Shown here one piece after another: positions 16,077 to 21,338 of a stretch of DNA of 33,326 nt (positions are counted from its first letter, which is position 1; every line of letters starts with the position of its first letter). Made by a program: the position numbers and the translations under genes. Below the pieces are notes generated by a model. The model searched no databases. It was not told where the DNA came from and saw only the letters and a list, made by a program, of their open reading frames with translations. Source of the stretch: Candidatus Altarchaeota archaeon (GTDB lineage: Archaea; SpSt-1190; DYHY01); contig JAUXGB010000003.1 of NCBI GenBank assembly GCA_030622515.1, positions 1 to 33,326 of the forward strand, read 5' to 3'.

Positions 16077-17885
16077 CTATCCCTTGTCCTCCAGCCTTAG
16101 TTTTGGGAGTATGCCAAGTGACATCAACTCCTCAAGAAGAATGTGGAATGCATAAGACATTTCCACAAACTCCACCCGGTTCCCTTCTCCACACATCGGG
16201 CAGTATGCTTTTTCCTTCTGGCTGTCATAGACTGCGTGTACCCTGCATCTTTCACAGACAGCGATTGTTGTCTTGTCCGAGTCGAAGCGCTCCTTCAGCA
16301 GCAGTGCGGCGCCGTGGGCCACAAGGCAGTCCTTTTCCATTTCTCCCATCCTCAGACCGCCCTTCTTACTTCGTCCTTCTGTTGGCTGTCTTGTAAGAAT
16401 CTGAACGGGGCCTCTGGCTCTTGCGTGAAGCTTGTTAAGCACCATGTGCCTCAGCTTGTGGTAATAGATTATCCCGGTGTAGATTTCCGCCTCGAATGCC
16501 TTTCCTGTTCTTCCGTCATAGAATCTTTCCTTTCCGGAACTCTTGAAGCCGTGCTTTTCGAGAATCGTTTTCATTTCCTTTTCCGGGTTTTCTGCGAAGG
16601 CGGTTCCGTCAATTAGTTTGCCTTCGAGCGCGCCAGCCTTTCCCGCAAGGAACTCCAGCAACTGGGAAACCGTCATTCGTGACGGGATACCGTGTGGGTT
16701 GGTTATCATGTCAGGAATAAGCCCACTTTCAGAGAAAGGCAGGTCTTCCTCAGGAACTATCATGCCGACAACCCCTTTCTGCCCGTGACGTGAAGAGAAT
16801 TTGTCTCCAAGCTCGGGAACCCTGTCATCCCTCATCCTCACCTTGACCATCTTGTGGCCCTCAGTGTCTTCCGTTATTGCGACAAGGTCTGCGACCCCTC
16901 TTTCGCCATGCCTTATTGAGATTGATGTCTCTCGCCTGTTCTCGACCCCGCGCCGGAAGACGTCAACTGCACCCAAGAATCGCGGCGGTGATGTTCTTCC
17001 AATTATCACGTCCTCGCTCTTCAGTGGAGATTCAAGTTCGACAATTCCGTCGGAACCGAGGTTCCTGTAGAGGCTTTCTACCCGGTAGCCAATGACATCT
17101 TTTTCAGGGGCTTCTATCCTGTCTTCCTGCCCGCCAGGGTAGCGCTTCTCGGAGGTCTTGTACGGCCTGTAGAATGTACTTCTGCCAAGTCCCCGCTCGA
17201 TGGATGACTTGTTAATAACCACTGCGTCCTCCATGTTGTAGCCTTCCCATGTGCAAAGGGCGACAACAAAGTTCTGCCCGGCCGGATGGGTATCAAAGCC
17301 GACAATGTCAGTTAGCTTCGAGCGCACGACAGGCGTCTGGGGGTAGTGGAGGATGTTAGAATAGGTGTCAAACCTAAGCAGGTAGTTTGTTGAATAGATC
17401 CCAAGTGCCTGCTTCACCCCTTTGGAAGCCCCGTAGTTTACCCTGTCACCCCGTGAGAAGTTGGCAAAGGGCACCAGCGAAGCCGGCAGTCCAAGAATCG
17501 TTATAGGGTCTATCTCAAGATGGGTGTGGTCAGGAGTAACATCTTTTGGCCTGAGCGCGATGAAAAGATTTTCCTCTTCCTCGGCATCGACGAATTCCAC
17601 TTTTCCCTGCGCAAGCAAGTCATCCCACTTTAGGCTTCCTTTCTTCACTTTTGTTATGTCGGCAGGTGTGAGTTTCGGCTTTCCGCCCTCTACAACTATC
17701 AGCGGCCTCAAGACTCTCCCCGCATCTGTGAAAATCCTCACCTCGTCGGATTCCTCCAGATAGGATACTGAAACCTGCGGGTCAACTTTCCCACTTCTCC
17801 TCTGGACCCTGAACTTTTCGACAAGGGCCTTCGGGTCGCTGTGTGTTCCAACCATTCTTCCGTTAAGTATTATGTCTGCCATCAT
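16077..17885 (-). CDS. rpoB1: DNA-directed RNA polymerase subunit B'
   Basis: GDKFSSRHGQKGVVGMIVPEEDLPFSESGLIPDMITNPHGIPSRMTVSQLLE; C-terminal zinc motif CERCRVHAVYDSQKEKAYCPMCG. Confidence 0.98.
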   Translation of the reverse strand: MMADIILNGRMVGTHSDPKALVEKFRVQRRSGKVDPQVSVSYLEESDEVRIFTDAGRVLRPLIVVEGGKPKLTPADITKVKKGSLKWDDLLAQGKVEFVDAEEEENLFIALRPKDVTPDHTHLEIDPITILGLPASLVPFANFSRGDRVNYGASKGVKQALGIYSTNYLLRFDTYSNILHYPQTPVVRSKLTDIVGFDTHPAGQNFVVALCTWEGYNMEDAVVINKSSIERGLGRSTFYRPYKTSEKRYPGGQEDRIEAPEKDVIGYRVESLYRNLGSDGIVELESPLKSEDVIIGRTSPPRFLGAVDVFRRGVENRRETSISIRHGERGVADLVAITEDTEGHKMVKVRMRDDRVPELGDKFSSRHGQKGVVGMIVPEEDLPFSESGLIPDMITNPHGIPSRMTVSQLLEFLAGKAGALEGKLIDGTAFAENPEKEMKTILEKHGFKSSGKERFYDGRTGKAFEAEIYTGIIYYHKLRHMVLNKLHARARGPVQILTRQPTEGRSKKGGLRMGEMEKDCLVAHGAALLLKERFDSDKTTIAVCERCRVHAVYDSQKEKAYCPMCGEGNRVEFVEMSYAFHILLEELMSLGILPKLRLEDKG

Positions 17886-19375
17886 TACTCACCCCATTTC
17901 TCCACGCCAAGCAGAAGGAGATTTTTCCTTATGCTCTCGGCCTCGGCGCCTTCTGTAACCTTGCCAAGCAAGGCTAGGTTTTTTCTCAAGCCAATGTTCT
18001 GACCCTCAGGGGTTTCGGAGGCGCAAAGTTTTCCCCAGTGGGTTGGATGAAGCTCCCTCGCCTCAAAGTGGGGCTGTGATGTCGTCAGCGGCGACAGGAC
18101 TCGCCTCAAGTGAGAGAGGGTGTCCATGTAGTTCAGCCTTTGCAAGTGCTGGGAAACTCCTGTTCGCCCGCCAACCCAGTAGCCGGTGGCAAGGGCGGAT
18201 TCGAGCCGCCTTGTGAGCAGCTGCTCACGAACAACAGTCTCCAGAGGAGGCTCCCGCCCCCGCTTGGTTATCCTTTCGAAAGAATATTTCATGTCGTTCA
18301 GCAGCGCCTTGAAGGAGGCACGGAAGAGTTGTTCCATAAGCTCGCCTGCGAGCTTAAGCCTCTTGTTTGCATAATGGTCCTTGTCGTCCTCACTGACATA
18401 GTTGTAGTGAAGCTTGATTAGTTTTTCGCAGCACTTTCCAAGATAGCGGGCTTTTTCCATCTTGTCTGAATGCCTTCTCCCAATGTGGGGGAAGAGGTAC
18501 TGGTCGAGGAGCTGGGAAACCCTCTCTACCCTGTACTCCTGGCCCTGACCTATCTTCATCTGCCGTCCAATCCAGTCAAGCGCATCCTCGGTTGTGTGGA
18601 TGTCGCCTGTGGTTTCAAGGTTAATCATTATGTCCTCGAAAAGCCTTTCGTCCTGCGAAACAACTTTCATTATGTCCTCATCTCTTTCGAGACCGAGGGC
18701 CATCATCAGGACAACCAGTGGGATGCGAAGCACCCTTGCAAAAGATATCCGGATAGAACCGTCGTTCAGCCTCTCGAAAAGGTGAGGCACTCTGAAACCG
18801 GGAGCCTCAGAGAACAGCCTTGCGATTTCTGTCGCAGACCCGCTTTTCTTCCTCTCAATGAGTGGCAGGTTTGGCCGCAAATCCTCAATCGCAATCAGGA
18901 CTCTCTCTGTCCCGTTAATTATGAAATATCCTCCCGGGTCGCCGGGGTCTTCGCCAACATCGATTAACTCCTTTCTGGAAAGCTTGGAAAGCAGGCAGGG
19001 TTTTGACCTCAGCATGATTGGCATCTTGCCGACTTCTGCTTTGATTGGCTCGTTCCTTATCCCGTCCCGTTCAACAATAAGTTCGAGGATGATTGGAGAG
19101 CCGTAGGTGATTTCCCTAATCCTTGCTTCAGACGGAAGGAGTTCGTTCTGGGAGCCGTCGGCTTCCTTGACGACTGGCTTCTTCAGGTAAATCTTCCCGA
19201 ACTTAATCTTGTACTCGCTTGACCCTGCGGGAATAACTGCCGGGACAAGCTCGCCAACCTCGTTGACGACGTTCTGCATTCCCTCTAAAATAAACCTGTT
19301 GTACGAATCAATGTGGTGACGTACCATTCCGTACCTGTCAAAAAATCCCCTGATAATGTGTTCGAAACCTTCCAT
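17885..19375 (-). CDS. rpoB2: DNA-directed RNA polymerase subunit B''
   Basis: GGYFIINGTERVLIAIEDLRPNLPLIE, RRVLSPLTTSQPHFEARELHPTHWGKLCASETPEGQNIGL. Confidence 0.98.
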   Translation of the reverse strand: MEGFEHIIRGFFDRYGMVRHHIDSYNRFILEGMQNVVNEVGELVPAVIPAGSSEYKIKFGKIYLKKPVVKEADGSQNELLPSEARIREITYGSPIILELIVERDGIRNEPIKAEVGKMPIMLRSKPCLLSKLSRKELIDVGEDPGDPGGYFIINGTERVLIAIEDLRPNLPLIERKKSGSATEIARLFSEAPGFRVPHLFERLNDGSIRISFARVLRIPLVVLMMALGLERDEDIMKVVSQDERLFEDIMINLETTGDIHTTEDALDWIGRQMKIGQGQEYRVERVSQLLDQYLFPHIGRRHSDKMEKARYLGKCCEKLIKLHYNYVSEDDKDHYANKRLKLAGELMEQLFRASFKALLNDMKYSFERITKRGREPPLETVVREQLLTRRLESALATGYWVGGRTGVSQHLQRLNYMDTLSHLRRVLSPLTTSQPHFEARELHPTHWGKLCASETPEGQNIGLRKNLALLGKVTEGAEAESIRKNLLLLGVEKWGE

Positions 19376-19461
19376 TAGAATACAACCTCCAAAGGTGAGA
19401 ATGAATCAATGACCTGACGGGAAATCCTCGATGTCCCAAGAGAAAACTGCTTGACATTTTT

Positions 19462-19487
19462 GATAGGTGATGGTGGGCCCAGTGGGA
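19462..19487. repeat. Duplicated tRNA-Lys 3' end plus 12-nt trailer (distal copy of perfect 26-bp direct repeat)
   Basis: gataggtgatggtgggcccagtggga is identical to 19588..19613, which contains the 3' end of tRNA-Lys. Confidence 0.95.
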
Positions 19488-19587
19488 CAAGCCTTTTTCC
19501 AAAAGCCTTGAGGGAAAACCGCGTGTCAAGACACGCACAAGAATTTTTCTTGGGGTGACCCTTAGACCTTCTTTTGCTAAAAGAAGG
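19488..19587. other. 100-bp non-coding hairpin cassette between tRNA-Lys 3'-end repeats
   Basis: Hairpins: GCGTGT-caag-ACACGC (19521..19536), CAAGAA-ttt-TTCTTG (19538..19552), CCTTCTTTT-gct-AAAAGAAGG (19567..19587). Confidence 0.85.
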
Positions 19588-19613
19588 GATAGGTGATGGT
19601 GGGCCCAGTGGGA
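19588..19613. repeat. Native tRNA-Lys 3' end copy of the 26-bp direct repeat
   Basis: gataggtgatggtgggcccagtggga; 126-bp offset from 19462..19487. Confidence 0.95.
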
Positions 19614-19704
19614 TTCGAACCCACGACCCTCTGCTAGCTTCACGACCAAAGGTTTCTTCAGCAGTGTAAAAGGCAGATGCTCTGCCATGCTGAGCTATGG
19701 GCCC
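19600..19704 (-). tRNA. tRNA-Lys (anticodon TTT) with a 31-nt intron at 37/38 (intron 19636..19666)
   Basis: Minus strand GGGCCCATAGCTCAGCATGGCAGAGCATCTGCCTTTTA[CACTGCTGAAGAAACCTTTGGTCGTGAAGCT]AGCAGAGGGTCGTGGGTTCGAATCCCACTGGGCCCA. Acceptor GGGCCCA/TGGGCCC, anticodon stem TCTGC/GCAGA. CUUU/GAAG central helix with 3-nt bulges fits a bulge-helix-bulge site. Mature length 74 nt. Confidence 0.92.
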
Positions 19705-19717
19705 GCGTTTGTGAGGC

Positions 19718-19789
19718 GCCCCGACTGGGATTCGAACCCAGGTCACAGCCGTGACAGGGCTGTATTCTAGTCCACTATACCATCGGGGC
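19718..19789 (-). tRNA. tRNA-Asp (anticodon GTC)
   Basis: Minus strand GCCCCGATGGTATAGTGGACTAGAATACAGCCCTGTCACGGCTGTGACCTGGGTTCGAATCCCAGTCGGGGC; complete cloverleaf. Confidence 0.95.
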
Positions 19790-20126
19790 ATTAGTGCGAG
19801 ATACTTCTCCTTAATCCTGCCGAGGTTTTTTGAAATTTTTGGTATTTGGGGGTGCAATCTGTTGAAAATGTCCAGATTCCCGTCAATGCTGTTCGAACGG
19901 GATATATCTACCTGTCTGGGGGTTTCTGACCTCAAGAAATTACCTCACTCCAGCCTCACAGGATTGGCGGAAAAGTTCCCTTTAAATAGTTTTCGCTACC
20001 GGTGGGAGTGGAAAAAACACGGCTTCCAGCCCTCCCCCAGAGTAGGTTAAATCGGGCTTTTTCACTACCTTAGACGGGTAACATAGCCGACATCTTTATA
20101 AGGCTATGATGGGGATAGAGGGTATT

Positions 20127-20829: not shown

Positions 20830-20848
20830 TTGGTCCCCTCAGCTGGCA
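20830..20848. repeat. Degenerate tRNA-Tyr 3'-end-like repeat, copy 1
   Basis: ttggtcccctcagctggca, identical over 19 bp to 21009..21027; resembles the native tRNA-Tyr end ggtcccctcggtggga at 21221. Confidence 0.88.
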
Positions 20849-21008
20849 CCTTTTAGAAAAAGCTGCACCAAAAGAAGCCCTTGATGTTTCCAACATCTGG
20901 GCCCAATTTGTCAAAGACAATTTGGGTTTTGGGGTTTCAAAAGACCTCCCAAGTTGCTGAAAGCAACTGGGCCCAGTCGTTTCGACTTGGGTTTGTGAAA
21001 AAGGGATT
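20849..21008. other. Non-coding tandem hairpin cassette (distal Tyr cassette)
   Basis: GATGTT-tcc-AACATC (20883..20897); CCCAATTTGTC-aaa-GACAATTTGGG (20902..20926, one central mismatch); CCC(A)AGTTGCT-gaa-AGCAACTGGG (20948..20971); CCCAGTCG-ttt-CGACTTGGG (20972..20991). Confidence 0.85.
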
Positions 21009-21027
21009 TTGGTCCCCTCAGCTGGCA
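21009..21027. repeat. Degenerate tRNA-Tyr 3'-end-like repeat, copy 2
   Basis: ttggtcccctcagctggca, 19-bp identity to 20830..20848. Confidence 0.88.
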
Positions 21028-21220
21028 GCCTTTTCCAAAAAGCCTGCAGGGAAAATAGTCCGTCCTAGGGGACGGACAAGGGGCCCCTCGCTGTCTCTAA
21101 CGGCGAGGCCCAGTACCGGCCGAAGGCTGGTTCTTGACGAACTTGGTTCGTCCAGATGGCAGAGCCAACTTGGTTTTCTTTGGTGATCTCTAAGCTTTCT
21201 TTTAGGAAAAGAAAGATTGA
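21028..21220. other. Non-coding tandem hairpin cassette (proximal Tyr cassette)
   Basis: GTCCGTCC-tagg-GGACGGAC (21058..21077); CCTCGC..GCGAGG; ACCGGCC-gaa-GGCTGGT (21115..21131); GACGAAC-ttg-GTTCGTC (21136..21152); TGGC-aga-GCCA; CTTTCTTTT-agg-AAAAGAAAG (21195..21215). Confidence 0.87.
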
Positions 21221-21222
21221 GG

Positions 21223-21338
21223 TCCCCTCGGTGGGATTCGAGCCCACAGCATGCCGGTGTCTGAGTGATTGCTAACCAAGTAAAGCTTGACAGCTAAACT
21301 CTACAGCCGACCACTCTACCAGATTGAGTTACGAGGGG
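21223..21338 (-). tRNA. tRNA-Tyr (anticodon GTA) with a 42-nt intron at 37/38 (intron 21259..21300)
   Basis: Minus strand CCCCTCGTAACTCAATCTGGTAGAGTGGTCGGCTGTAG[42 nt]ACCGGCATGCTGTGGGCTCGAATCCCACCGAGGGGA; anticodon stem GTCGG/CCGGC; acceptor CCCCTCG/CGAGGGG; mature length 74 nt. Confidence 0.92.

Follow-up and report, generated by a model that had tools for sequence, protein, structure and literature searches.

Why should the 3' end of a tRNA gene be present twice, with a short stretch of hairpins in between? The question is raised by a tRNA-Lys gene in the 33,326-nt stretch of DNA analyzed here (the window), which corresponds to contig C8 in the draft genome (877 kb) of an archaeon (the source genome, G000). 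We find that the cassette behind this gene probably belongs to a family of short hairpin elements, mobile and non-coding, whose insertion sites are the 3' ends of tRNA genes and, at least once, of a small RNA (sRNA) gene, and which duplicate their target. In the following sections, we describe the cassette and its relatives and consider how such an arrangement could have arisen.

The tRNA-Lys cassette and its 26-bp duplication

A repeat search of the window recovered the direct repeat GATAGGTGATGGTGGGCCCAGTGGGA in two copies with 100% identity and a start-to-start distance of 126 bp, so that the duplication described in an earlier note on this DNA is exact. The chance expectation of a 26-mer repeat within 33 kb is about 1e-7. 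Read along the minus strand, the locus consists of tRNA-Lys, CCA, TCACCTATC, hairpin 1, a linker, hairpin 2, hairpin 3, the copy of tRNA nt 60-73, CCA and TCACCTATC (Table 1). The tRNA-Lys(UUU) gene was identified through Rfam and was missed in an ARAGORN run on the window.

The interior had been described in the earlier note as consisting of hairpins and lacking an ORF. Three hairpins are indeed found within its 100 bp, and an Rfam search of this interior returned no match. The second part of the description needs qualification: the interior is non-coding, but two minus-strand ORFs (19338-19688 and 19375-19935) are listed across the cassette stretch. Because both enter or traverse tRNA genes, we take them to be spurious.

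The last 9 nt of the repeat, which follow the encoded CCA, are similar to the starts of sister elements elsewhere in the genome (CCACCTATCCC behind tRNA-Leu at C10:5880 and CCACCTATTCC in an array on C35). On the strength of this similarity, these nucleotides may belong to the element, as the remnant of a lost second tandem unit, and not to a native tRNA trailer.

Table 1. Features of the tRNA-Lys and tRNA-Tyr loci in the window.
Feature	Position	Strand	Basis and remarks
rpoB2, downstream neighbor of the cassette	17885..19375	-	ORF list; RpoB2 comparison
Distal copy: tRNA-Lys 3' end plus 9 nt	19462..19487	-	Repeat search
100-bp non-coding hairpin element	19488..19587	-	Homology to sister elements in the source genome
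Hairpin 3, CAAGGCTTTT..AAAAGGCTTG	19488..19510	-	Folding; outer stem with compensatory changes among sister elements
Hairpin 2, GCGTGT..ACACGC	19521..19536	-	Folding
Hairpin 1, CCCTTCTTTT-AGC-AAAAGAAGG	19567..19588	-	Folding
Gene-side 26-nt copy: tRNA nt 60-73 (14 nt), encoded CCA, TCACCTATC	19588..19613	-	Repeat search
tRNA-Lys(UUU) with intron, target gene	19600..19704	-	Rfam RF00005, 61.5 bits
Second GCTGAGGGGACC copy	20832..20843	-	Downstream DNA of tRNA-Tyr
Second, tandem element behind tRNA-Tyr	20844..21010	-	Nested double hairpin at 20948-20991
Copy GCTGAGGGGACC of a tRNA-Tyr 3' end	21011..21022	-	Present gene reads ACCGAGGGGACC
First element behind tRNA-Tyr	21023..21220	-	Downstream DNA; homology to sister elements
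tRNA-Tyr gene, second target in the window	21223..21338	-	Rfam RF00005, 47.4 bits; long match, presumably with intron

An element family at tRNA and small RNA 3' ends

Searching the source genome with the tRNA-Lys cassette identified related stretches on several other contigs, and a listing of the DNA downstream of its tRNA genes revealed hairpin-rich homologous elements directly 3' of about 19 of 38. A single homologous family is present at many tRNAs, including those for Lys, Phe, several Leu, Tyr, Trp, Asn, Val, Met, Gln, Ser and others. About twenty copies are found, each about 90-200 bp long and without ORFs, and pairwise matches between their interiors show 72-97% identity. The tRNA-Lys element matches the elements behind tRNA-Leu on C10 (86% over 58 positions), tRNA-Leu on C56 (76% over 95), tRNA-Phe on C59 (73% over 100) and tRNA-Tyr in the window (86% over 29). 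Nested inside the loops of some elements is a double hairpin built around GGGCCC, which forms a second module.

The stems of these elements covary. In an alignment of sister elements, the outer stem of hairpin 3 was found as CAAG/CTTG, GCAG/CTGC, GGAG/CTCC, GCAC/GTGC and CGAG/CTCG. These compensatory changes indicate that the fold of hairpin 3 matters, either as RNA or as single-stranded DNA. An Rfam search of element loci in the source genome assigned the elements to no family, viral contigs searched with two element patterns gave 0 matches and several searches of the open-access literature returned nothing relevant.

We next consider the sequence that closes each element. The earlier note had proposed looking for other tRNA genes with duplicated 3' ends in the same genome, and a strict test, which required the acceptor strand and a copy within about 170 nt downstream, found a copy of the tRNA's own end at no fewer than 13 of 37 testable genes versus 0 of 30 control tRNAs from six unrelated complete archaea (at least 13/37; Fisher p = 3e-4). 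The copies are specific to each gene: when downstream regions were swapped among the tRNAs of the source genome, the mean score was 7.2, with the 99% level at 17, and the real scores were higher. At 15 loci, the own-end match starts near nt 56-60 and stops with CCA. The per-position match is at least 0.73 from about nt 60 through CCA and then 0.40, which gives the duplicated segment sharp edges. Its length varies from about 10 nt (sRNA) to 26 nt (tRNA-Lys), with decay blurring the edges. Distal copies of Tyr, Met, Val and Gly hold mismatches that are absent from the gene, and this independent decay is consistent with the copies being scars.

Tandem elements are found behind tRNA-Tyr in the window, tRNA-Leu on C1, tRNA-Leu on C56 (continuing on C64) and tRNA-Met on C57, and near-identical tandem units span C56/C64. 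Such arrays seem to break assemblies. In the tRNA-Tyr pair, both copies share a sequence that differs from the 3' end of the present gene (Table 1), as would be expected of fossils that no longer track the gene. We also observed orphan elements (C28:4884, C35:15568 and C1:7217) that carry a tRNA-Leu end with no tRNA gene adjoining, one orphan being a mosaic of two subtypes. The orphans and the mosaic point to recombination among element copies, and since simple target duplication does not predict orphans, later rearrangement would be needed to explain them.

One target lies outside tRNA genes. Contig C48 of the source genome encodes a predicted C/D-box sRNA on its minus strand (L226, G000:C48:1252-1319; GCC-GATGATGA ... 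CTGA-GGC), whose guide TGATGGGCGG pairs with the universal 16S sequence CCGCCCGTCA with one G-U (the E. coli 16S was compared). In this sRNA, the nucleotide that faces 16S C1402 lies five positions upstream of box D. Rfam had no match at this locus, and a search for orthologues of the sRNA in relatives gave weak matches only. Behind the predicted sRNA lie two family elements, each closed by GTCTGAGGCA, which equals the sRNA 3' end. From this single case, small RNA gene 3' ends, and not the T-loop, would seem to be what the elements target. No element was seen in the downstream stretches of eight SRP RNA genes, so not every small RNA is targeted.

Filled and empty sites in related genomes

Comparisons with relatives, which rest on draft assemblies without reads, revealed orthologous sites that are both filled and empty. 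The tRNA-Lys/rpoB2 junction had been singled out in the earlier note as the place to look, and in the nearest relative, G001, this junction is empty: on contig DYHY01000001.1, tRNA-Asp, intron-bearing tRNA-Lys and rpoB2 retain their order, with element and second 3' end both absent. Further empty sites came from a same-genus pair (G005 and G008, DPANNHV_H2 bins 121 and 71) in which sites were paired through matching flanks. Between Arg(gcg) and Lys(ctt), the spacer measures 40 bp in G005 versus about 200 bp in G008, where it holds hairpins and a degenerate copy of the Arg 3' end. Conversely, a Cys element with a perfect copy and a Met element are found in G005 only, and the corresponding sites are empty in G008.

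A different kind of evidence is provided by G007, in which two tRNA genes on the same contig, separated by 3.6 kb, carry an identical element. The two elements are closed by CAAATCCGGGCGGCCCCA and CGACTCCGGGTGGCCCCA, each of which matches its own tRNA gene exactly. Duplication of an entire tRNA-plus-element unit could also produce such a pair, but would require that gene and copy later changed jointly. That one element occurs at two genes of this genome, and is followed in each case by the 3' end of the adjoining tRNA, argues for mobility, as do the filled and empty orthologous sites within a genus and the empty junction in G001.

The same anatomy, built from other sequences, is found in G001 and in family f2 (G002, G005, G007, G008 and G009); G003 and G006 were sampled thinly in this survey. 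In f2, a first hairpin, with stems that vary but remain self-complementary, is followed by GAYCAAA, and this motif lies within 110 nt at 34 of 88 f2 tRNAs versus 0 of 30 controls. Because the closest named relatives by RpoB2 are Candidatus Altiarchaeota MAGs, the anatomy of the tRNA-end elements appears, from these sequence comparisons, to be a phylum-level feature.

Two arrays in relatives deserve separate mention. In G001 (L098, contig C27), a perfect 53-nt tandem array opens with a tRNA-Arg(TCG) 3' end and reaches the contig end. In G007 (L133, contig C4), tandem hairpin-GACCAAAAC units behind a tRNA gene are interrupted by the contig end.

Candidate mechanism and competing explanations

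The most economical account of these observations is insertion by a trans-acting enzyme with target-site duplication. An element would insert at the 3' end of a tRNA gene, and at least once of a C/D-box sRNA gene, and insertion would duplicate the last roughly 10-25 nt of the target. The complete 3' end would stay on the tRNA body, which would render insertion harmless, and the second copy would remain behind it as a scar. Tandem arrays would then arise through further insertions or through slippage between repeats. Since the elements encode nothing, an enzyme acting in trans would be needed to move them; we further infer staggered cutting of the target and a DNA or RNA intermediate.

A search for such an enzyme covered 10 genomes of the class. 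Cas1 (PF01867) and Y1 (HUH) transposases are absent from all 10, and tyrosine recombinases (PF00589) are present in two, with none in G000 or G001. A single reverse transcriptase gene (PF00078) was identified, at C6:4306-4923 of G000 (L155), and was rejected as a general mover on the grounds that it is found in this genome only. Because the class genomes are drafts that are 72-98% complete, absence of an enzyme from them is not proof.

Could the structure instead be maintained for the sake of the tRNA? The earlier note had raised the possibility of a tRNA-mimicking processing element, in which hairpins and second 3' end would form a selected tRNA-like or alternative precursor structure that serves as an RNA-processing or regulatory trailer. 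Covarying stems would be in keeping with this role, and an annotated small RNA is released from a similar layout in E. coli. One G007 (f2) element together with its copy folds as an acceptor-like stem, one arm and a T-arm to the discriminator base (z -2.9), which makes a processing role possible in some members. The tRNA-Lys element of the window, however, has no tRNA-like fold (z only -1.7). Mismatches in distal copies are not mirrored in the gene, the element is missing at orthologous tRNAs within one genus and about half of tRNAs lack an element, all of which render a maintained trailer an unlikely general explanation.

Duplicated tRNA 3' ends are also the classic mark of integration at tRNA genes, as the earlier note stated, and the inserts of archaeal tyrosine-recombinase elements are flanked by direct repeats from the tRNA 3' part (PMC6563490). 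The loci described here could accordingly be read as attL/attR pairs whose interiors have nearly all been lost, since T-loop-to-3'-end identity blocks are typical of att sites and tRNA genes are often used by archaeal elements (PMC6563490). Known elements of this type share the flanking duplicated tRNA 3' end but are large, encode an integrase and carry att on the element, and none of these traits was seen here. This explanation is disfavored, and we regard it as improbable: the recombinase is missing from G000 and G001, one attP would need to fit many different tRNAs, leftovers at different tRNAs are mutually homologous, unlike the products of independent deletions, and the C48 sRNA case involves no tRNA. 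The classic form of tRNA-gene integration is therefore not upheld for the window. Casposons come closer in their choice of target. The A. boonei casposase acts at the tRNA-Pro 3' end, recognizes the T-loop motif TCAAATC and generates a 14-15-bp duplication (PMC6614799); casposons thus resemble the present elements in targeting a tRNA-gene 3' end and duplicating a short target segment, and non-autonomous, miniature versions would look alike. Casposons nevertheless are kilobases in size, encode Cas1, have terminal inverted repeats and duplicate a segment further downstream. The duplication made by the casposase starts 8 bp past the T-loop motif; the copies described here begin at about nt 56-60, in or beside the T-loop. 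Visual inspection of the tRNA-Lys and G007 elements showed no obvious terminal inverted repeats. Given in addition that none of the 10 class genomes has Cas1 and that the C48 sRNA target has no T-loop, a Cas1-based origin is very improbable. Least credible is an explanation that dispenses with mobile elements and invokes tandem duplication through replication slippage or assembly error. The perfect 53-nt units in G001 and the near-identical C56/C64 units do show slippage-like expansion, but slippage cannot place homologous interiors behind unrelated tRNA genes, and unrelated assemblies share the anatomy.

A comparison with known systems places the proposed mobile elements among small non-coding hairpins. 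The closest analogue is the E. coli tyrV/tyrT locus (RttR small RNA; Rfam RtT), where three 178-bp units lie directly behind the tRNA gene at tyrV, each ending in 19 nt that repeat the 3' end of tRNA-Tyr, CCA included (AATCCTTCCCCCACCACCA). The archaeal elements are likewise closed by the 3' end, including CCA, of the adjacent tRNA. They form a genome-wide family that is present behind about half of the tRNA genes, in each case with a copy of that gene's 3' end. The Rfam RtT model gave no match to the elements at 11 loci up to E = 1. Yeast mitochondrial GC clusters, sponge RHE and Allomyces double hairpins are tiny non-coding mobile hairpins with no known enzyme, whose units merge and shuffle (PMC4478555, PMC2800124). 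Nested double hairpins and mosaics in G000 recall these mitochondrial elements, which differ in having 2-3-nt flanking duplications or none, no targeting of small-RNA 3' ends and no homology. With homologous copies at several sites, no ORF and both filled and empty orthologous sites, the archaeal elements behave as mobile hairpins (MITE-like, as a functional class), and we file the window element as a non-autonomous mobile hairpin element outside the RttR, GC-cluster and casposon families. The non-autonomous mini-integrative element suggested in the earlier note is thus well supported by duplicated 3' ends elsewhere and by empty sites in relatives.

A broader proposal, which we advance tentatively and consider rather unlikely, is that these sequences represent a new class of element that recognizes small structured RNA genes (tRNA, C/D-box sRNA) by their 3' ends as such and not by a DNA motif, perhaps through an RNA intermediate or some integrase, and that has colonized tRNA genes phylum-wide. 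If the mobile-element reading is true, about half of one archaeon's tRNA genes hold roughly 100-bp mobile hairpin copies. It would caution that assemblies of archaeal genomes break at tRNA genes bearing such arrays, and would place the E. coli tyrT 3'-end repeats in a broader context. Which machinery places DNA at small RNA gene 3' ends would then become a testable question.
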